From: Jiangella alkaliphila
GTDB lineage: Bacteria > Actinomycetota > Actinomycetes > Jiangellales > Jiangellaceae
Direction of reading: 5' to 3'
DNA: 64,000 nt
NCBI RefSeq assembly: GCF_900105925.1
Contig: NZ_LT629791.1
Span: 496,001 to 560,000, forward strand
The notes under the pieces are model-generated. The model saw nothing but the letters and a program-made list of their open reading frames with translations, searched no databases and had not been told where the DNA came from. Shown piece after piece: positions 6,001 through 47,790 of the stretch. Positions within the stretch are counted from its first letter, which is position 1. Each line of letters starts with the position of its first letter. The position numbers and the translations under genes are program-made.

Positions 6001-7260
6001 CGACGGCGCGCACATAGAACGTGTGCTCCGTGAGCAGCAGCTGCGGATCCGCGTACGAGTACACGTCGAGCAGGTTGAACGGGCTGACGCACTCGACCCA
6101 CTCGTTCCCGTTCGGCGGCGCCGTGCCGTCGGTGACCTGGCACTCGAACGTGAGCAGGAACTCCGGGGTCAGGTCGTCCGTGCCGCTGAACTCGAAGATC
6201 GTCGAGCTCAGGTCGAGCAGCCCTGGGGCGCGCTCGATCGTGGTGTTCGGCGGCAGCGTGTCGACCGGTTCGACGACCTCCCACTCGTACACGGCGGGCT
6301 CCAGCTCGGCGGCCGTGCCGAACAGCTCGGACTCGCCGTAGACCTCGAGCACGTGGTCGCCGGGGAGCAGTGGCTCCGGGAAGGCGGTGTCGCCTTCGAA
6401 CGCCGGGCCGGCGCGGAACGGCGACTCGCACGGGAAGTAGCCGCCGGGGTCCATGCTGTCGAAGCGGCACCAGAACGTCGCGTCGGCGACGTTGGCCTCG
6501 AAGTGGATCTCGGCCGAGGTGCTCGCGCTCGGACCACCCGTCGCCGGGTCGCCCTGCGGGCCGCCGGCTGTCGGCGTGAAGCCGGGGCCGTCGGTGAAGA
6601 CGACGTTGACGCCCAGGAGCTCCCAGGTGAAGGTCGTCGGCGCACCGACGTTGCCCTCGAAGTCGATCGCGCGGACGGAGAACGTGTGCGGTCCGACCTC
6701 GTTCTCCTCCAGGCCCCACTCGAAGGCGCCCTGGTTCATGAACGTGGCCGCCTCGAAGCCACACGGCTCGTAGCCGTTCGCGTCGACCTTGCATTGGAAG
6801 GTGACGTCCGGCTCGTTCGCGTGGAAGGTGAAGATCGCGTCGAGGAGCCAGACCTGGACGCCGGCCGTCGCGGGCTCGATGTCCTCCGGCACGACGTCGA
6901 GGGTCACCTCGGGTGCCACGCCCGTCGGCAGCGGCACGTAGCTGAAGGTGAAGCTCTCCGGCGTCGGGTCGGCCAGGCCCTGGCCCATCATGTCGACGGC
7001 GCGGACCTCGAAGGTGTGCTCGCCGGGACTCAGGTTCAGGTACTCGGCCGGGTAGTCGCAGTCCTCCCACGCCAGCGGATTCGTCGAGTCCATCCGGCAC
7101 TCGAAGACGAGCTCGTGGATCGGTGTGAACTCGTCGTCGCCCATGTAGGTGAAGCTCGCGTTGCGGCTCGGGCTCTGGATACCCGGCGTGGCGGTGTCCC
7201 AGTCGGCCGGGCCGGAGACGATCCAGGTCTCGGGCGCGCCGGGCACGGTGCCGAGCTCGC
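1..7260 (-). repeat. C-terminal array of about 22 Ig-like repeats in the giant protein
   Basis: Roughly every 280-330 bp the minus strand encodes a unit of about 95-110 residues. Each has a FEC.LD core, a second Cys about 10 residues later in C.SP, and HTF.VRAVD..GN..PTP. Unit cores lie near 55, 700, 1010, 1265, 1566, 1826, 2141, 2460, 2785, 3055, 3331, 3612, 4285, 4600, 4890, 5168, 5461, 5775, 6140, 6466, 6790 and 7095. Two different modules interrupt the array near 180-500 and 3750-4080; both contain LHFDG-W-DVT and a later Cys. The units are diverged copies, not exact tandem repeats. Confidence 0.85.
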
Positions 7261-10200
7261 AGACCACGCCGAAGCACTGCTCGGGCTCCATGTTGCCGGC
7301 GGCGAAGTTGCCGCCGCCGTCGACGGCGCCGACCGAGTAGATGCCCCAGCCGCCGTTGATCTGGGCGACGTTGTCCTTGATCGTGTGGCCGGAGCCCTCG
7401 ACGTAGATGCCGTCGCCGCCGTTGGAGTCCGCGGTGTTGTTCTCGACCAGGGTGCCGGAGTCGAGGACGGACGACTCGGTGACGGCGATGCCGTCGCCGC
7501 CGTTGCCGCTGGCGGTGTTGCCGCGGACCACGGTGTCCTCCGACAGTTCGCCGATCTCGACGCCGGACCCGAGCGTCCCGCTGGCGTTGTTCGCCTCGAT
7601 CGTCGTGCCGGTGGCCTCGCCGACCTCGACGCCGCTCGCGCTGCCGCCGAAGTCGTTCCCCTTGACGAGCGTGTTCGTGGCGAGCTCGACGACCACGCCC
7701 GGCCCGGACGAGCCGTTCACGGTGTTGTTGAGGACGGTGTTCCCGTCGCCGCCGACCAGCACGCCGCCCTGGCCGCCGGAGATCGTGTTCCGCCGCACCA
7801 GGTTGTCGTTCGAGGGCAGCAGTTCCTCGCCGGCCACGACAGCGAAGCCGCCGTTGTCCTTGAGCGTGTTCTCGCTGACGGTGTTGTTCCCGCCGCCGAT
7901 CATGAAGATCCCGTCGCCGCTGCTCATCGAGACCTGGTTGCCCTCGATCAGGTTGTCGCTGGCGAACTCCAGGTAGATGGCGCCCTCGCCCTGGTTCGCG
8001 CCGAGCGTGTTGCCACGGATCACGGTGTGGCGCGTGCCGGTGTAGAGCGCGATGCCGAGCTCGTTGGCCACGATGGAGTTGTCGCGGATCGTGTTGCCGT
8101 CGCCGCCCTGGTCGGCGTCGGACAGCGCTATCCCGGCCTCCTCGTTCGCTTCGACCCGCAGGTCGTGCACGACGTTGCGGGCGGTGCCCACGTTCAGCTG
8201 GACGCCGTAGAGGAACTGGGTGACGAGGCCGTTGGTGACCGTGACGTCGTCATGTCCGTTGTTCAGGATGCCGGCGTCGAGGCCCAGCCCGTCGATGACG
8301 TGGCCGTCGAGATCGATGGTGATGCCGGGGGCGCCCACGATGAGGCCGTGGCCGCCGCAGTCGACGAGGTCGTTGGTCAGGCGCGTGCTCTGGGTGAGGA
8401 TCTGGCCGCAGCTGACCTGGGCGGCCACCGGTAGCGGACCGATGGTCCAGGCGAACACCTTCGTGTCGAAGGTGCTCGCGGCGTCCGTGGCCCGGACCCA
8501 GAACTCGTGGTCACCGGGCTCGAGATCGGTGTACGTGACCGGCGAGGTGCAGGCCGCCGCGTCCGGCCACAGGTCGGTCAGGTCCGTGCCGGCGTCGACC
8601 CGCAGGCACTGGAACGTCACGCCGGCGTTGCGGTTGGCGGAGAACGCGAACGTGGCGTCCGTGTCCACCGTGATCTTGTCCGGCGTGGAGTCGATCGAGA
8701 CCGCGAAGCTACCGAGCTCCACCGACCACGTGTAGGTGGCCGGCGTCGCGTCGGCGTTGCCGCTGAAGTCGATCGCGCGGACCTCGAACGCGTACGTGTC
8801 GTTGACGAGATCGGTGATCGTCTCCGGGCTGGTGCAGGCCTTCCACTCCACGGACGCGGCGAGAGGCTGGGGGCCGAACCGGCACTCGAAGGTGACCGGG
8901 CTCGCGTTGTCGGCGCCCGTGAAGTGGAAGACGGCAATGCTCTGCGTGCTCGGGTTGACCGGCGCCTCGAGGATGCTCGTGTTCGGGGCGATCGAGTCGC
9001 CGCCGCCGGGCCCGTCCACGCAGGTGATGTTGTAGCACTGCTGGGGCTTGAGGTCAATGCCGAGCGGGCCCTGGTTGCCCTGCGCGACGTTGCCGCCGCC
9101 GTCGATGTTCGCCCGCCCGTTCGACGGGTCGCCGACGTGGATGCCCCAGCTCTCGTTGTCGAAGGCGACGTTGTCCTTGAACAGGTGCGCCGGCTTCGAT
9201 GCCTGGATGCCGGTGCCCTTGTTGCCGTTGGTCGTGTTGCCCTCGACGAGGGTGCCCTGGCCGGCCGGGGTCTCGTCGCCGATGTAGATCCCGCCGCCGT
9301 CGTTGTTGCTGGACACGTTGTCGAGCAGCACGTTGCTGAGCGACTGCGCCTCGAGCGTGATGCCGGTCGACTCCGAGTTGCTGGCGTCGTTCGCTTCGAT
9401 CCGGTTGCCGGTCGACTCCTTGAGCGAGACTCCGCCCTTGTTCCCGCTGACCTCGTTGCCACGGATGACGTTGTCGTTCGCCCGGTAGAGCTCGATCGCG
9501 TAGGCGCTCGAGAGCGTCCCCACGTTGTCGATCAGCTGGTTCTGGCTCGACGTGTCGATCTCGAAGGCGGGTCCGGCGGTGTCGGACACCATGTTGCCGA
9601 CGACGACGTTGCCGGTCGACTCGATGCCGATCGTCGGCCCCTGCGTCGTGGCCCCGACCAGGACACCGTGAGCGGCGTCCACGATCGTGTTGCCCTTGAC
9701 GGTGTTGCCGGTGGCGCCCTCGAGGAGCACGCCGGCACCGCTGGAGGACTGCAGGTCGTTGCCGTCGATCAGGTTCTCGGTGGCGCGCTCGATCCAGACC
9801 GCGTCGTCGCTCGAGGCGCCGATGAGGTTACCGCGCACGACGTTGTCCTTGGCGCCGTTGAGGATCCACACGCCGCGCCGGTTCGACACGAGCGTGTTCG
9901 ACCGGACGATCGTGCCGTCGACGCCGGACTGGAAGCCGGGCACCGGTTCGCTCGGGGCCAGGGTCGGGTCCTCGGGGAACGTCCCATGGCCGAGACTGAT
10001 GCCGGCCTCCTGGTTGGTCTCCGCCGTGATGCCCTCGACGATGTTCAGCCCGGCGCCGTTGTTCAGCATGACGCCGTAGTCGAAGTCGGCGAGACGACCG
10101 TTGCGGATCGTCACCGAGACGAAGCCGTTGTTGAGGATCGCGGCTCCGAGCGACTTGCCGTCGATGGTCTTGCCGTTCAGGTCGATGGTGATGCCGTCGG

Positions 10201-40682: not shown

Positions 40683-40755
40683 GGACAGGTAGCTCAGTTG
40701 GAAGAGCGTCCGCCTGAAAAGCGGAAGGTCGGCGGATCGAACCCGCCCCTGTCCA
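40683..40755 (+). tRNA. tRNA-Phe (GAA)
   Basis: 73 bases fold into a complete cloverleaf. Acceptor GGACAGG/CCTGTCC, D arm GCTC-AGTTGGAA-GAGC, anticodon stem TCCGC/GCGGA with loop CTGAAAA (anticodon GAA at 40716-40718), T stem GGCGG/CCGCC. CCA is not encoded. The T loop reads ATCGAAC, so position 54 is A instead of the near-universal T. Its 3' end is repeated at 46276-46302, marking it as the likely attachment site of the island that follows. Confidence 0.93.
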
Positions 40756-40770
40756 CCCCTTGACCAGCGC
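40744..40770 (+). repeat. Candidate attL: tRNA-Phe 3' end
   Basis: 27 bp beginning in the T stem and running 15 bp beyond the tRNA. They match 46276-46302 at 24 of 27 positions, including an uninterrupted GTCCACCCCTT and ACCAGC. Confidence 0.6.
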
Positions 40771-41002
40771 ATTCATCGGTCGCTGATTGACCGTGACTCA
40801 CCGCGCCTGTCCGCGTTTCGCCGGTCGCTATCGCACGTACATCGCACGGCCGGACTCTGTCCGTTGGCCGGCGATTGGCCCTGCACGGCGCGCGGTCCGC
40901 CTGCTGCTCGGCTCCAGCTCATCCGCAAGTCGCCCCGGCCGGTGCCTAACACGGGCTGGGGACTTGATCCCGCCTGAGCTGCGTTACGTGAAGTCTCGGT
41001 GG

Positions 41003-42013
41003 TTACGACGGTGCTGGTGCGCGGGTGTAACGGTCGAGAATGCGCTCGGTGAGTTCGATCATGCTGGGGACGTCGCCGTTGTTGGCCAACGCGGTGATCG
41101 TGACTCCGAGGTCAGGCAGGCGGATTGCCTTGGCCGTCCATCCGCCGGGCCAGTTGCCGCCGTGGCTGTGTATCAGCACACCGTTCTCTCGGCTGACTCG
41201 CACCCCCCAGGCATAGTCGATCGGTCGGCCGTCCTCGAGCCTGCCGGGAGCGTGGATCAAGGCTCGAACGCGCCCGTCGATACTGCCGCCCGGGAGCAGC
41301 GCGTCATTCCAGCGCTGTAGGTCGTTGACGGTGCTCCAGGCTCCGCCGTCGCCAAGGCTGAGCGGCAGCGGCCAACGCTCACCGTGTTCGTCGTCCGGGT
41401 TGCCCGCAGCTGCACCGGCTGGGACGGCGGCGTGATGATCGCAGAATAGGGACTGTCGCATGTGCAGCGGTTCGAACAGCTGGTGAAGTGCGAGATCTGT
41501 GAACGGGGTGTCTGTGACGCGTTCCAGGACCGCGACGAGGCAGATGTAGCCGGCATTGCAGTACTGGTAGGCGCTTCCTGGTCGGAACTGCAACGTCGAA
41601 CAGTTCTGCAGGGCTCGCATGACCGCGGGGCTGTCCCACTGGTGTTGACCGTTGGCGGCGATGTGCTGCTGCAGTGCAGCATCGCCGGGCAGTCCGCTGG
41701 TGTGGTGAATCAGATGACGGATGCGGACGTCGTCGCTCCACGCGGGAAGTTCGGGAAGCCATTGCCGCACAGGCGATTGGATGTCCAGCTGGCCGTCCAA
41801 GACCAGAGTTGCGGCACAGGCCGCGACCATCTGCTTGGACAGAGACCCGGTTTACGACACGGTGCTTGCGGTGAACGGGACTCCAGGTCGTGCGTGGCCG
41901 CGAGCCGCTGAAAGCAAGGCGCCGTCGGTGTCCCGGACTGCGACGGCAGCCCCGCAGGCGTCCTGGTCGTAACCCGCGCCCTCCAGCAGTGCTTCGAGCG
42001 TCGGATCTCTCAT
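41003..42013 (-). pseudogene. Beta-lactamase-family serine hydrolase with in-frame stop
   Basis: The family frame runs in register from ATG 42013 (MRDPTLEALLEGAG) to 41003 but contains TAA at 41852-41854. The codon lies just before the catalytic SxxK (GSLSKQMVAA). The later motifs are intact: YCN (Y-x-N) and HGG (H/K-x-G). Restarting at ATG 41830 would lose SxxK, so no active enzyme is expected without readthrough. A single base change would explain it. The family covers class C beta-lactamases, D,D-peptidases and esterases. It lies inside the tRNA-Phe island. Confidence 0.8.
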
Positions 42014-42343
42014 CGGGGCAGTATCCAGCATCTGGTCGGTCGCCCCGGACACCGGAGATCGGCGCGGGTGGCCCGGACGTTCCCGAGCTACCTCGCACCG
42101 CCGACGGCCGCACGTCGGCGGTGCGTTCGAGTCGGGTGAGTTGCTGGTGGCAGGACGTTGCCTCGTCGTCTCGCATCGCTCCTGCCGCACGTCAGGTGGC
42201 GGAGATGTGTCGCACATCTGTTGGCGGATCACACCACGAAGGCACAACGAAGGAAAGCCACCTAGGCCACGAGGAAGCGGCAATCTACGTCGCCAGGCAC
42301 TCAGGACGAAACGTGTGTGTCCGCTTACCGCTCGCTCTCTGCG
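42014..42343. other. Gap between the beta-lactamase pseudogene and the AIPR gene
   Basis: 330 bp with no recognised gene. A 7-3-7 palindrome, AGATGTG-TCG-CACATCT, at 42203-42219 lies about 190 bp upstream of the pseudogene start and may be the operator of a lost regulator. Confidence 0.5.
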
Positions 42344-44086
42344 TCACTGGCCGTCGTCGGCGGCCAAAGGATCAAACTTCAGGCTGCTGAGGTGCAAGAC
42401 GAAGTCAGGCCCCTTTGCGATCTTGTCGGGGGAGTCCCCACTCGCCTTACTGAAATCGACCTGCGCTTCGCGCACCAGCTCCAAGCACTCGTGTAGATCG
42501 GCGTCGGAGATGGTCTTTTCTCGCGCGGTGGAGTTGAGTTGTCCGACCGCGACGACACTCTGCCCGACCAGTCGCCGCGCAGCAACCATGGCGACATGGA
42601 AGCGGAGATCAGTCCGCTCTTGAGCCGTCACGCTCGGATCTGAAAGAAGGAATGCATCTATCTTCTTCTGCGACTCGGCCAACCAGAGGTACGTGGGTAG
42701 AGGCACTGAGCGCGAAAATACGCGCTTATAGTCTTCGTCGCGCTTCAACAAGCTTGACGGACGAGCGCGCGAGTTGTCCGGGCGCCCCAGGCCCATTGCC
42801 ATCACAGCCTGGGCGAGTAGTGGAATGCTAATAATCTTTTCGGAGCTCTTGCCTATGTTTCGGTAGTAGTTCTTGCGCCTGTCGTAAAACCATCCGTGAC
42901 CCAGGAAATATGCCTCGATATCTCGCTGGATATCGTCTGTTGCCCGCAGAGACGCTGCGGGAACTGAGGTCTGCCGATTAGTCGCCCTGATGACACGATC
43001 ACGAGTCGCCAGATCGTCACCGGTCACCAAGATCCTCACAAGAACTGCCCGATCAAGCGCGGCGTGAGTCTCCTCCACGGCACTCAACTCATTGAAAATC
43101 GTGTACGAGGTCTGTAACCCATTTACGACCTGCACGTTGTCAAGGATATAGGTCTTGCTCACCGTGGAAGCGCTCGAGCAAACAACCGTAATTCCGTTGT
43201 TTAGCCACCAAAACTCGGGACTATCGACGTCCTTGATCGAGTCGCCGATTTCGCGATTTACCTCCACGTCGCCCTGATAGTCCCGAACGTTCCAGTCGAA
43301 TATGTAGCGCCGGAGGGTGCCATCTTCATCCTTCAAGAACTTCACATAGTCGCGAAGCTTGACGAGCGCGACATGGCCATTTCCACGCGTGACGTTCTCC
43401 TGGAATTCTAGCTCTGATGTGTAGGACGGGACTGAGTTAACACGTTGCCAGAGCTCGACCGCACCAAGAAACTCGACGTGGGCCTCAGCGCCGGTTATTA
43501 CCCCGGCAAGTTGCCGCTGCAGATCTCTGCCCTTGATCTCGACCTTAGCGTTAATGTCACTCGTGGTGCCCCGACTAGCGTAAACGAACCAAACCGTCAC
43601 CGTTGGTCGCCTGGTCGCTAGTGCCCTGAGTGCCTTTCGGAATAGTGAGATCCGCTCGACGACCGCGCGCGAATAGAGTCTCAGGAGATCTTCCTCAGCC
43701 TCGCTAAGGTTGAGCAATCGCCTTGCCGAATCGGACGCCTTCTCGATCGCCGTCTCGGAGAAGGACTCCTCCCTCTTCGCTTGGACGAGCCACAATTCGA
43801 GCTTCGATCTCGCCGGATACTTGGTGGCGACGAAATCTGCGGCGAGTACTTCAGAGTCCTCGGTCAGCACAGCCTCGTTTAGGAGAGCATAAATTCCGTC
43901 GAAGCCGCCGTCATTACCGCCCCCAATGACGCCGTCTGAGATCTCCTCGGAGGAGAGTTCACGTTCCCGCAGCGCCTGCTCACAGGCGAAGAGCTCAAAG
44001 GCATAGTCGGCAGCGATGGGGGTAGTTCGCTCCGCCTCACGTTGGACCAAAACTTGATCGAGCAACACGAGCTCGTTGTTCACCAT
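42344..44086 (-). CDS. AIPR-family abortive-infection phage-resistance protein
   Basis: 580 residues from ATG 44086; an upstream ATG at 44179 adds 31 unrelated residues. The N-terminus has a Mrr-like PD-(D/E)xK pattern: D63 in GGFDGIYALL and Q102-A-K104 in LELWLVQAKRE. The body carries AIPR hallmarks: WNVRDYQGDVEVNREI, FWWLNNGITV (about 293-301) and VVNGLQTSYT (about 322-328), then RVIRATNRQTSV. AIPR proteins are linked to phage defence by abortive infection. It is the second gene of a pair, 114 bp after the nuclease-like gene, in DNA of lower GC than its surroundings. The target is unknown. Confidence 0.85.
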   Translation of the reverse strand: MVNNELVLLDQVLVQREAERTTPIAADYAFELFACEQALRERELSSEEISDGVIGGGNDGGFDGIYALLNEAVLTEDSEVLAADFVATKYPARSKLELWLVQAKREESFSETAIEKASDSARRLLNLSEAEEDLLRLYSRAVVERISLFRKALRALATRRPTVTVWFVYASRGTTSDINAKVEIKGRDLQRQLAGVITGAEAHVEFLGAVELWQRVNSVPSYTSELEFQENVTRGNGHVALVKLRDYVKFLKDEDGTLRRYIFDWNVRDYQGDVEVNREIGDSIKDVDSPEFWWLNNGITVVCSSASTVSKTYILDNVQVVNGLQTSYTIFNELSAVEETHAALDRAVLVRILVTGDDLATRDRVIRATNRQTSVPAASLRATDDIQRDIEAYFLGHGWFYDRRKNYYRNIGKSSEKIISIPLLAQAVMAMGLGRPDNSRARPSSLLKRDEDYKRVFSRSVPLPTYLWLAESQKKIDAFLLSDPSVTAQERTDLRFHVAMVAARRLVGQSVVAVGQLNSTAREKTISDADLHECLELVREAQVDFSKASGDSPDKIAKGPDFVLHLSSLKFDPLAADDGQ

Positions 44087-44200
44087 GCGCGGCAGCGTAG
44101 CCCACGCGTGGTGCGTCTTCCAGGCACCGAATGGGCGCCGCTCAGCGTCACCTGACGCGTGTGCGACCGCTGCGGGCATGAGATTGCCCGCCCGGTCCTC

Positions 44201-45487
44201 CTACTCGGCCGGAAGGGTTACGACGCCCGTAGCCCCTTTGAGCACCTGCAGCACGTCCGCGGCCCGCATAGCTCCGGCCTCGACCGCCGTTCGGAACTTA
44301 AAGATCTGCGCCGTATCCACGACCATGCCACCATCATTCGCGAAGTCGTGAACCGCATCGGGGTTCGAGATGAGCGGAAGAGGTCGCGAGGCCGGGTCCA
44401 TTCCGCTGCGCTGATTGACCACGTACCACAGCGCGTCTGGCTCTCGATGGTTCTCCAGAGCGAACTTCACGGCAGGTCGCCTAAATTGTTGAAGGTCGTT
44501 TACCTTTGCGTCGCGCCGGCCGCCATATCCCTTGACCTCGACAAGAGCGACCCAGTCGCCGTCCCAGACCTGGAGGTCTTCAAGCTTCTCATCAGCGCGC
44601 TTCGGTAGGCCATCGGAGTCCACGACTCTGAATCCAAACAGTTCCAGAGTAATGCGGACCTCATCCACGAGGTCGTCACCCTGAGCCGTAAGCAGGCGTC
44701 TTTGTCCTTGCGCTGCCGCCTCGCCGGCATGGTCCAGCGCCGCTTCAAGTGCCTGACCTTGCGCGGCCCGCTCGGCTACGATCCGAGTTGTTTCTGTACC
44801 GTGAGCAAGTAGGGCATCCGAAGCCCTCGTCTCGGCAGCAGTGAACCATTCAGAGTTCGAGGTCCAATCGCTGGTCTCAGGAAAGCGCCCAGACTCGACC
44901 TGTCGCCACGCATTTAGCACTGCGGACAGCCAAGCACCTTTCTGGGGCGTGTCCGACGGCAGCCACCACCACTGAGCGCTTGTGGAGCTTTCAGTACGGT
45001 TCCAGTATCCGGCGGCGGCGTCCCCGTCTTCCTCTAGAACGATTGGACTCACCCGCATCGGACTGTCGCGCCAGTTTGACGGCGGCAGGATAAGGAATCG
45101 TGGACGCATACCAAGTAGGTAGGGCGCCAGCGACCTGTTAGCTAGGTCAGAAACCTCGGCAGATAGACCCTCCGAGGGCACAGCTAATCGCTCCCCGACA
45201 CCGCGCCGATCGAACTCAACGTACCCGGGGTACTGAGTAGGAAAGAAAACTCTGTCCTCGTCGCTAAACTGCAGAACGTAGAGGTGTGACGCAGGACTTC
45301 GCTCGATTCCCTGCACTACATATGCGTCGAACTCCGCTTGTCGTACCTGTTCATCGATTGATGCTCCCGACTCCAGGAAGGCGACATGCGAACTAAGCGC
45401 AGCCAGCGCCTTTCCCAGTTCACTGCCCGGTGCGATACCGTCAGCGATTATCCATGGTTTCGGCTTGGCGCCATAAATGTTCGCCAT
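44201..45487 (-). CDS. Putative PD-(D/E)xK nuclease-like protein, partner of AIPR
   Basis: 428 residues; ATG 45487 has a strong SD (AAGGAGG, eight bases upstream). I do not recognise the first 220 residues; they are rich in W and beta strand (LYVLQFSDEDRVFFPTQYPG, AQWWWLPSD). A helical stretch (about 222-265) leads to a C-terminal domain VDEVRITLELFGFRVV ... EKLEDLQVW ... WVALVEVKGYGG. E/D303-304, E317 and K319 fit a RecB/Mrr-like nuclease core. The domain order suggests an N-terminal sensor joined to a nuclease. It probably forms an operon and a functional pair with the AIPR gene. Low GC and the island location suggest transfer. Confidence 0.6.
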   Translation of the reverse strand: MANIYGAKPKPWIIADGIAPGSELGKALAALSSHVAFLESGASIDEQVRQAEFDAYVVQGIERSPASHLYVLQFSDEDRVFFPTQYPGYVEFDRRGVGERLAVPSEGLSAEVSDLANRSLAPYLLGMRPRFLILPPSNWRDSPMRVSPIVLEEDGDAAAGYWNRTESSTSAQWWWLPSDTPQKGAWLSAVLNAWRQVESGRFPETSDWTSNSEWFTAAETRASDALLAHGTETTRIVAERAAQGQALEAALDHAGEAAAQGQRRLLTAQGDDLVDEVRITLELFGFRVVDSDGLPKRADEKLEDLQVWDGDWVALVEVKGYGGRRDAKVNDLQQFRRPAVKFALENHREPDALWYVVNQRSGMDPASRPLPLISNPDAVHDFANDGGMVVDTAQIFKFRTAVEAGAMRAADVLQVLKGATGVVTLPAE

Positions 45488-45841
45488 TTAAAGGCCTCCT
45501 TGGCCAATTCAATGCTACGTGGTCTGGGGATTGCGGACCCTATCAACTACGCTGGCGAGGTGACTCATGTCAGTAACCACGATATTTGCACCGGCATTTT
45601 CTAGCCTAGCCCGCTTTCCAACTTTGTTGGCATAGCCGATGACAGAGGCCTCGTGACCAACCAGTCTACTGGTGTCGGCCGCTCTACTGGGTATTCACAC
45701 CTGGCCCGATCGATCGAGAATTGTGTTATCAAGTACGGCTGCATCGGCAGCTACCTGCCGAGGTCTAAGATCTCCTTCAACGGCACGGGAGGCTATAGCT
45801 ATATTGGTGGGAAGGGATAGCTTCGACAGGAGTGCGCTCAG
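45488..45841. other. Gap upstream of the nuclease-AIPR pair
   Basis: About 350 bp of lower-GC DNA. It holds the HAD remnant at 45515-45694 and the AT-rich TATAGCTATATT near 45795, which may be a promoter for the small membrane protein gene. Nothing else was recognised. Confidence 0.5.
45515..45694 (-). pseudogene. C-terminal remnant of a HAD-family hydrolase
   Basis: A 59-codon frame between two stops reads LVGHEASVIGYANKVGKRAR then LENAGANIVVTDMSHLASVV. This resembles the end of actinobacterial HAD hydrolases (VGYANKPGK.. LxxAGAD.VV..M.xL). The catalytic N-terminal part with DxDGT is absent and there is no start codon, so it is a fragment. It sits between the small membrane protein and the nuclease-AIPR pair in the island. 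Confidence 0.55.
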
Positions 45842-46027
45842 GTGAAGACCGTTCTGCGGATGTTGGTTGTCTTCCTCATCTATTGCCTCGCGGTTTTTCT
45901 GCTCGCCGTGCTTCTTGGGAGCCTTGGCGGGCCGATAGGGAGTGTCGAACTGGTGATCATCATGATCGCGGTCGGCGTCGCTGAGGCCTACGTCATCAGG
46001 AGGATGGAGAGACGGCAGAGCGCCTGA
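45842..46027 (+). CDS. Small membrane protein
   Basis: 61 residues with two hydrophobic helices (LRMLVVFLIYCLAVFLLAVLLGSLGG and VELVIIMIAVGVAEAYVI) and a basic tail (RRMERRQSA). GTG start with AGGAG nine bases before. No family recognised. Small two-helix proteins on islands can be holin- or toxin-like or simply membrane anchors; the sequence does not decide. Expression is supported only by the SD and an AT-rich stretch upstream. Confidence 0.5.
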   Translation: MKTVLRMLVVFLIYCLAVFLLAVLLGSLGGPIGSVELVIIMIAVGVAEAYVIRRMERRQSA

Positions 46028-46139
46028 CGCATCACGACGGAGTGCCCGGGGGATGGTTATGCACCCCCGGGCACCTTTCGCTGCCTGCTGCAGTCGAGCC
46101 TGGACGGGCCGCCCACCGGCGCACATGGCGATGACTAGG

Positions 46140-46275
46140 TGTGGTCGTCCCGCCGCCCGCGCGGGCAGTGGACCGCACACCAACTTGCGACACGATCAGC
46201 TTCTCGTCGCGCAGGATGTCCAACGAATTCTGCACGGTCTGGCGGGCCACGCCGTTAGGTCTCGGCCAGCCTGCA
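46140..46275 (-). pseudogene. Frameshifted remnant of a GntR-family regulator
   Basis: The minus strand reads RLAET, then with one extra base (A, at about 46256) YGVARQTVQNSLDILRDEKL followed by IVSQVGVRSTAR, the classic GntR winged helix. The extra base creates a TAA and a frameshift. The N-terminal part is lost at the candidate attachment repeat. GntR regulators (KorSA-like) are usual near the ends of actinobacterial integrative elements, which supports the island reading. Confidence 0.65.
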
Positions 46276-46302
46276 CGCCCCCGTCCACCCCTTCACCAGC
46301 AC
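46276..46302 (+). repeat. Candidate attR: imperfect copy of the tRNA-Phe 3' end
   Basis: 24 of 27 bases match 40744-40770 in the same orientation. Mismatches fall at the 7th, 18th and 26th positions. It closes the lower-GC segment; core-type sequence resumes at once with the SnoaL-like gene. Confidence 0.55.
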
Positions 46303-46336
46303 GAACGTCGTGCGGCGATGCCGCTACAGCCGTCGA

Positions 46337-46741
46337 TCACGAGGCAGGCGAGTCGTCCACGATCGGGCGCGACGAGCGCCAGCGGGCCCGCCACTCCGGC
46401 GCCTCCCAGGCCTCGCCGCCGTAGATCGTCTCGCGGATCACCTTGTCGCCGCGGAACTCGAAGACGGAGACGCCGAACATCGAGGAGCCGCTGTCGTAGG
46501 TGACGATGAGCTCCATCACCCACAGGTCGCCACTGCCGCGTAGGCGGCGGATCTCGAAGTCGGTCCTCGCCGGATAGATCCGGCGCCACTCGCGGAAGTT
46601 CTCAATGCCCTCGAAGCGCTCGCCGGACTGTGGGAACTCGAGGACGGCGTCCTCGTGGTAGATCTCGTGCGAGATGTCCTGGTCGACGCCGCTGTAGTCA
46701 ATGTAGCGCTGTAGTGCTGCTCTGATCGCGTTCTCGTCCAT
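46337..46741 (-). CDS. SnoaL-like / NTF2-fold protein
   Basis: 134 residues from MDENAIRAALQRYIDYSG (ATG 46741). FHEDAVLEFPQSGERFEG-type strands, ENFREWRR, YPARTDFEIRRLRGSGDLWVMELIVTYD and FEFRGDKVIRETIYGGEAWEAPEWRARW give the NTF2/SnoaL pattern. Likely cytosolic. The function of this subgroup is unknown. It is the first intact gene to the right of the candidate attR. Confidence 0.8.
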   Translation of the reverse strand: MDENAIRAALQRYIDYSGVDQDISHEIYHEDAVLEFPQSGERFEGIENFREWRRIYPARTDFEIRRLRGSGDLWVMELIVTYDSGSSMFGVSVFEFRGDKVIRETIYGGEAWEAPEWRARWRSSRPIVDDSPAS

Positions 46742-46843
46742 GTCAGCTGCCCCTCGCGACGAGGCTACCGGCTGAACAGCAGATGACCCCGCACCCACCG
46801 GCCGGGAGGGACCGGCGGGCGCGGGGCCAGCTCGGGACGGTGA

Positions 46844-47614
46844 TCAGGCCGTCTCGGACCGCCGACGAGCCACGATCGCCGCACCGCCGGCCGCCAGGGC
46901 CAGGCCGCCGAGGGCGATCAGGGTCGCGTCCGAGCCGGTGTCCGGCAGCTCGTCATCGCCGTTCTCGTCGGCGGACGCGTCGTCGGTGCCGGCCTCGCCA
47001 GTCCCGTCGTCGCCGCCGCTCTCGGTGCCGGCGTCGGTGCCGCTGACCTCGCCGGTGCCGACGTCCGAACCGCTCTCGTCGCCACCGTCGTCGGCGCCGT
47101 TCTCGTCAGCGCCGTTCTCGTCAGTGCCGGCTTCAGCGCCGTCATCGGAGCCGACGTCGCCGCCGTCCTCCGCACCGTCGTCGCCGCCGTCGACGGCGCC
47201 CGTGTCGGAGCCGACGTCCGAGCCGTTCTCGTCGCCACCGCTCTCGTCGGCGCCGTCGTCGCCACCGTTCTCGTCGGCGCCGTCGTCGCCACCGTTCTCA
47301 TCGGCGCCGTCATCGGCGCCGTCGTCGCCACCACTCTCGTCAGCGCCGTCGTCGCCACCGTTCTCGTCGCCACCGTCCTCGGCGCCACCGTCCTCGTCGC
47401 CACCGTCCTCGGCAGCGCCGTCGTCCTGACCGTCCTCGCCGCCGTCGTCGTGGCCGTCCTCGCCGCCGTCGTCGTGGCCATCCTCGCCACTGTTGCCTTT
47501 GTCATCGTCGAAGGAGGCGACGGCCGCAGCCTCCACCTCGGCCGCCAGTGCCGGTGCAGCACCGGCGACGGTGAGAGCCAACGCCCCGATCCCACCGATG
47601 ATGCTCTTCCGCAT
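46844..47614 (-). CDS. Asp/Gly-rich LPxTG cell-wall-anchored protein
   Basis: 256 residues. Signal peptide MRKSIIGGIGALALTVAGA..APALA, then about 170 residues of acidic low-complexity repeat (GGDDGADENGGDDGADE and variants). The C-terminal sorting signal has LPDTG, a hydrophobic helix (LIALGGLALAAGGAAIVA) and RRRSETA. It should be linked to peptidoglycan by a sortase, none of which is in the window. The dense Asp/Asn/Gly pattern could bind calcium or act as a charged spacer (inference). ATG 47614 has GGGG upstream. Confidence 0.85.
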   Translation of the reverse strand: MRKSIIGGIGALALTVAGAAPALAAEVEAAAVASFDDDKGNSGEDGHDDGGEDGHDDGGEDGQDDGAAEDGGDEDGGAEDGGDENGGDDGADESGGDDGADDGADENGGDDGADENGGDDGADESGGDENGSDVGSDTGAVDGGDDGAEDGGDVGSDDGAEAGTDENGADENGADDGGDESGSDVGTGEVSGTDAGTESGGDDGTGEAGTDDASADENGDDELPDTGSDATLIALGGLALAAGGAAIVARRRSETA

Positions 47615-47790
47615 GATCAACCCCATAAAGTCACAGAAAGGGACAAAGCGAACATCGGGCGGGACCATACCGCACCCAACGGGCGCCGAAACCGGCTCTC
47701 AGCGGAAGAACGCCGCTGGGTGGGGCGCTGCCGACGGGGCGGACACGCGGCGCTTGACTTCGAGCGCACTCGAACTCGTACCGTCCAGCC

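Follow-up and report, generated by a model that had tools for sequence, protein, structure and literature searches.

The analyzed window, a stretch of 64,000 nucleotides from Jiangella alkaliphila, harbors two neighboring genes that lie together on a genomic island beside a tRNA-Phe gene (table 1). Both genes delimited in the earlier note are present as open reading frames (ORFs) on the minus strand, one encoding a protein of 428 residues and the other, in its longest form, a protein of 611 residues. The G+C content of the island is 0.61, compared with 0.70 for the window. By means of blastn, the window was compared with syntenic sequence, 8 to 15 kb in length, of 11 relatives in the same genus; only matches of more than 80 bases were considered. 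The copD gene and the tRNA region were kept in all 11 relatives, and the island with both genes was not found beside tRNA-Phe in 11 of 11 stretches. The matches inside 40.80-46.78 kb were all shorter than 100 bases (40887-40974 and 46189-46274, each in three relatives). Similarity to the window returns near 46.78 kb in L054, L056, and L057, after intervening stretches of about 90, 570, and 45 bases, respectively, and at 47.6-47.8 kb in L052, L053, and L055, while for L049, L050, L051, L058, and L059 the absence holds for the fetched stretch only, since the far flank was not reached. For the SnoaL-like protein encoded by the island, nothing was found at E 0.001 when the other 11 genomes of the genus were searched.

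Table 1. Features of the tRNA-Phe island and its surroundings (window positions, unless residues are given)
Feature	Position	Strand	Basis and remarks
tRNA-Phe	40683-40757	+	ARAGORN; one island edge
Island, ~6 kb, carrying both genes	40800-46780		blastn against 11 syntenic stretches; G+C
Serine hydrolase/beta-lactamase-fold protein, island cargo, downstream neighbor	41003-41830	-	PF00144, E 2.6e-36, profile 59-325 of 329
AIPR/AbiU1-family gene	42344-44086 from likely start (ORF to 44179)	-	Pfam and PADLOC; start by alignment, 3 relatives
Intergenic gap	44087-44200	-	TACGCT, which begins 13 bases ahead of the AIPR start
Gene of the 428-residue protein	44201-45487	-	ORF and translation
Parts of the 428-residue protein	residues ~211-265 (possible long helix)		unrecognized N-terminal part; C-terminal candidate PD-(D/E)XK core (D304, E317, K319)
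SnoaL-like protein, island cargo	46337-46741	-	PF12680

Further features were noted in and around the island. An imperfect direct repeat of 44 bases (75%) has one copy at 40744-40787, beginning within the 3' part of the tRNA-Phe gene, and the other at 46276-46319, near the far island edge; it is possibly a worn attachment site, or a chance resemblance. The serine-hydrolase gene may be split over two adjacent ORFs (41003-42283), and the ORF that was scanned matches the Pfam model from profile position 59 only. Just outside the island, a repetitive acidic protein with an LPXTG-type anchor is encoded at 46844-47668.

The AIPR ORF comprises 611 residues in full (42344-44179, minus strand) and 580 from the likely start. 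Three relatives in the AIPR alignment begin at residue 32 or 33 of the long ORF, and most of the 80 matches listed start near the same residues, so that the start at 44086 is likely, which leaves a gap of 114 bases to the gene of the 428-residue protein. In the numbering of the long ORF, the K104 of the earlier note is K135. An AGGAGG stands just before the start of the 428-residue protein, and the TACGCT before AIPR seems, from its sequence, to be a promoter motif of leaderless type. Leaderless actinobacterial promoters resemble a TANNNT motif at this spacing. TANNNT was found at -12 or -13 in 5 of the 28 AIPR relatives examined, all five being among the 10 with at least 56% identity (in two of these five the upstream sequence is the same), and its background frequency in the loci of seven close relatives is 0.0016 per position. 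Since five of the 10 closest relatives share this motif, AIPR seems to have its own promoter, with or without the 428-residue neighbor; as the two genes are co-directional and 114 bases apart, read-through is possible as well.

The identity of the second gene agrees with the earlier note, which had called it AIPR: it is a full-length AbiU1/AIPR-family protein, matching Pfam AIPR (PF10592) with 120.8 bits (cut-off 25, E 1.2e-34) and the PADLOC AbiU model (PDLC02357) with E 2.3e-181 over residues 36-597 (profile 2-530 of 537). Conservation was assessed in an alignment of 80 rows, composed of the window protein and 79 of 80 loci; the set designated A6 consists of 51 AIPR relatives. Across all 80 rows, the window protein included, N297, R299, D300, N308, N327, N328, N353, G354, and Q356 of the AIPR domain are invariant. 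Closer to the N-terminus, D90, G91, and D94 are found in 75 of the 75 ungapped rows (five being gapped over D-G-G-x-D), and at Q-x-K, where three rows are gapped, Q133 is present in all 77 ungapped rows and K135 in 76 of them.

The AlphaFold2 model of this protein, built from 52 sequences, has a mean pLDDT of 88.2. When superposed by VIA-align, for which a best Z of 7 to 8 is typical in the lack of a clear match, residues 1-220 aligned with the FokI cleavage domain at Z 9.5, slightly above that range (rmsd 4.3, 153 aligned), and with MspJI at Z 8.8 (rmsd 4.1, 137 aligned), while HamA (Z 6.0) and EcoT38I (Z 5.8) ranked lower. The identity to FokI and MspJI is only 10-21% over the aligned part, and the rest of each enzyme is unmatched. 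Residues ~232-373 superposed on ParB N-terminal CTPase domains at Z 6.2, which is below that range and of a size that the tool calls common (rmsd 3.2, 95 aligned), and on SspE at Z 4.8 (rmsd 3.5, 117 aligned); after about residue 373 the model is mostly helical. The fold reading rests on VIA-align, as a Foldseek search with the same model returned nothing at E 0.001 or better. A search of the AIPR profile against PDB sequences gave a single row at E 0.86, and hhalign against Mrr_cat gave 8.6% only, though the motifs line up. The N-terminal region is therefore predicted from the model to be a FokI/MspJI-like PD-(D/E)XK domain, carrying a D...(D/E/Q)-x-K motif, followed by a ParB/SspE-like, putatively nucleotide-binding domain. 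The catalytic motif of MspJI is of the Q-x-K form. The nuclease reading is the firmer of the two because fold, motif, and family-wide conservation come together in it, and the PD-(D/E)XK-like N-terminus suspected in the earlier note is borne out by both the conserved motif and the modeled fold. A passage in PMC3506569 states that the AbiU1/AIPR family has an N-terminal HEPN toxin domain. In the protein analyzed here, the Pfam scan gave AIPR only, and the model matches PD-(D/E)XK folds at the N-terminus, where it favors such a fold. The DndB link fits with a ParB/SspE-like middle domain.

The 428-residue protein was not matched by any family in Pfam, PADLOC, NCBIfam, or PHROGs; its family is uncatalogued in these four libraries. 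Its single-sequence model has a mean pLDDT of 39.5, and the helix at ~211-265 comes from this low-confidence model only. An alignment of 14 members was used to inspect the C-terminal core. It includes L156, which is absent from the set designated A7; neither of the two includes L160, a member split over two ORFs, or the other plasmid matches. Four of the seven records found with L024 as query were read, and of the 23 found with L004 only L165, which those seven had already supplied, was used. D304 is present in each of these 14, and 13 of them have E-x-K; as the similarity by which members were collected lay partly in the motif region, this conservation is not an independent test of the motif. 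The residues named in the earlier note (E303/D304, E317, and K319) are present, and all hold up except E303, whose position varies among E, A, and D. In L025 (1447-3015), a relative with D-A-T in place of E-x-K, the signature is lost, and this member may be inactive. The likeness to a RecB/Mrr-like core, also proposed in the earlier note, stands in part: two relatives match Mrr_cat (PF04471) below threshold, at E 0.0032 and 0.057, in the region of the D...E-x-K core, and the motifs of the family align with those of Mrr_cat, whereas the protein itself has no Mrr_cat match and hhalign of its family gave a probability of only 5.5%. From its sequence, the protein likely carries a candidate nuclease core. 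Seven rows obtained with the family profile against PDB sequences (E 0.07 to 0.49) were read as chance and rejected as homologs, which leaves no convincing PDB sequence for the protein. A relation between this family and AIPR was rejected as well, the profile comparison giving 0.5%.

Close orthologs of the 428-residue protein did not turn up. In a set of 99 genomes, mostly from the same genus, family, and class, two had a match at E 0.001, its own included. Among 393 genomes of the class, seven had a match at E 0.01; besides its own, two of them were strong, at 29% and 33% identity and with E values no higher than 1e-30. A four-row profile detected 10 of 393 at E 1e-4, again with its own included. 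A relative (L004) lies elsewhere in the same genome. A two-pattern scan of genome contigs, which is a weak test, found no close ortholog. As a query, the protein gave no match at 1e-5 in plasmids, no match in viral contigs, and one weak phage match (E 0.007). Other members reached further: L024 detected seven plasmid records (Klebsiella, Serratia, and Rhodococcus), with an identity of about 24% and a lowest E of 3e-7, and L004 detected 23 plasmid records, 16 of them of Streptomyces. Members of the Klebsiella branch of the family were also seen in two contigs of the viral collection (L168 and L169).

The earlier note had described the two genes as fixed partners of an undescribed two-gene defence unit, and had proposed the co-occurrence of the 428-residue family with AIPR as a check. 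We analyzed 87 AIPR-bearing stretches, namely the best 80 of 311 AIPR loci together with seven others, of which five come from plasmids, one is viral, and one comes from a further genome (L181 and L182 are not among them); 67 of 86 measure at least 9 kb, and the shortest 3,094 bases. By tblastn and the four-row HMM, a member of the 428-residue family was found in none of the 87. The three HMM matches obtained in this search are known loci of the family, and tblastn of the 428-residue protein on AIPR loci returned, besides known family loci, four rows at chance level (L136, L088, L113, and L083, E 0.26 to 9.8). Conversely, the 80-row HMM found AIPR in none of 10 loci of the 428-residue family, and in four plasmid loci of this family none was present by annotation, which is incomplete there. 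Both families occur in the genome G091, on different contigs, its AIPR being near a contig end. In the sets examined, no AIPR stretch out of 87 and no family stretch out of 14 shows the two genes together. Such a lack of conservation is what the earlier note had named as refuting its proposal, and the fixed-partner reading was dropped; the earlier observation is sound in parts and wrong in its main inference. We consider it probable, at roughly 0.7, that the two genes are independent cargo of the tRNA-Phe island and not a dedicated pair, AIPR being an AbiU1-family effector and the 428-residue protein a separate, second nuclease.

Two other explanations share the island setting with this reading. 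Both genes could be decaying cargo, neither of them active in defence here, in line with the scanned serine-hydrolase stretch, which matches its Pfam model from position 59 only, and with the ORFs in the interval 45.5-46.3 kb, which by eye look unconvincing. Both ORFs of interest are intact and keep their motif residues, however, and the AGGAGG before the one and the promoter motif before the other also speak against decay, which we regard as unlikely. A two-gene defence unit confined to a rare lineage, with a sensor and two nuclease centers, would account for the shared strand, the gap of 114 bases, the candidate nuclease motifs in both proteins, and the presence of both genes on one island that was not found there in relatives. 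Because the best relatives of the 428-residue protein share only about 30% identity with it and none is a close ortholog, lineages outside the sample may hold such a pair. The lack of pairing in all 87 AIPR stretches and all 14 family stretches, along with a promoter motif that AIPR has in common with close relatives without the partner, makes such a unit quite unlikely.

Under the independent-cargo reading, the AIPR effector would consist of a FokI/MspJI-like PD-(D/E)XK domain, a ParB/SspE-like and probably nucleotide-binding domain, and a helical tail, and binding of a nucleotide or another ligand by the middle domain might release the nuclease during phage infection. We infer nuclease activity, a trigger for it, and, in this host, an effect against phages. 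The 428-residue protein would join an N-terminal part for sensing or targeting, through a helical linker, to a PD-(D/E)XK core at the C-terminus. We tentatively suggest for its family, as a possibility against which the odds still stand, that it comprises uncatalogued mobile single-gene nucleases with varied N-terminal parts (perhaps sensors) and a shared C-terminal PD-(D/E)XK core, carried by actinobacterial and enterobacterial plasmids and islands as stand-alone effectors of phage or plasmid defence. The proposed two-gene defence system is thereby removed and two simpler claims take its place. If AIPR/AbiU1 is, as modeled, a FokI/MspJI-type nuclease with a ParB/SspE-like domain, a long-known family of abortive-infection proteins would gain a concrete mechanism. 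The interest that remains in the neighbor is that its nuclease-like family, present on a number of plasmids, lacks an entry in the four protein-family libraries searched.

The link of AIPR with phage defence, as drawn in the earlier note, agrees with the match to the AbiU model and with a passage in PMC3506569. Lactococcal AbiU is described, in a passage of PMC3985639, as abiU1 plus abiU2. The AbiU model, which the window protein matches over its full length, is also matched by a lactococcal plasmid AIPR protein, at E 1.2e-177. The locus of the latter, L181 (3797-6849), has a HEPN_AbiU2 protein downstream of AIPR, as in the described arrangement. In the window, abiU1 beside a HEPN abiU2 is not found: the scanned neighbors of AIPR are instead the serine hydrolase downstream and an unrelated candidate nuclease upstream. 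It is very improbable that AIPR acts as in the lactococcal system with the 428-residue protein in the place of AbiU2, for despite the two-gene composition of AbiU and the downstream HEPN_AbiU2 neighbor of the lactococcal AIPR, the 428-residue gene lies upstream and not downstream, its product has no similarity to the lactococcal HEPN_AbiU2 protein and was rejected as an AbiU2, and no AbiU2 relative was found in 86 AIPR loci (tblastn, 1e-5; a weak test with one query).

AIPR is a known kind of protein, found in several other defence settings. Mza-like operons, in an excerpt of PMC9523054, are proposed defence operons that combine a Z1 protein, a PD-(D/E)XK protein, a cytosine methyltransferase, and AIPR. 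The window resembles them in having AIPR together with a PD-(D/E)XK candidate, and differs in that the other parts are absent among the four island proteins scanned and that the 428-residue protein has no Pfam or PADLOC match. Seven Streptomycetaceae loci (L073, L074, L076, L077, L078, L079, and L080) have a tblastn match to AIPR/AbiU1 at about 6001-7800, between pglZ and brxD; for L076, L077, and L080 the AIPR ORF was not delimited by the filter, so that they have no neighbor row. In L073, PADLOC names BrxC-PglY, PglZ, BrxD, and BrxHI around AIPR, as in a type 2 BREX/Pgl operon. A Microbacterium plasmid (L006, 24-7548) carries HmaB- and HmaC-like genes and a gene for an uncharacterized protein of 320 residues, followed by AIPR.
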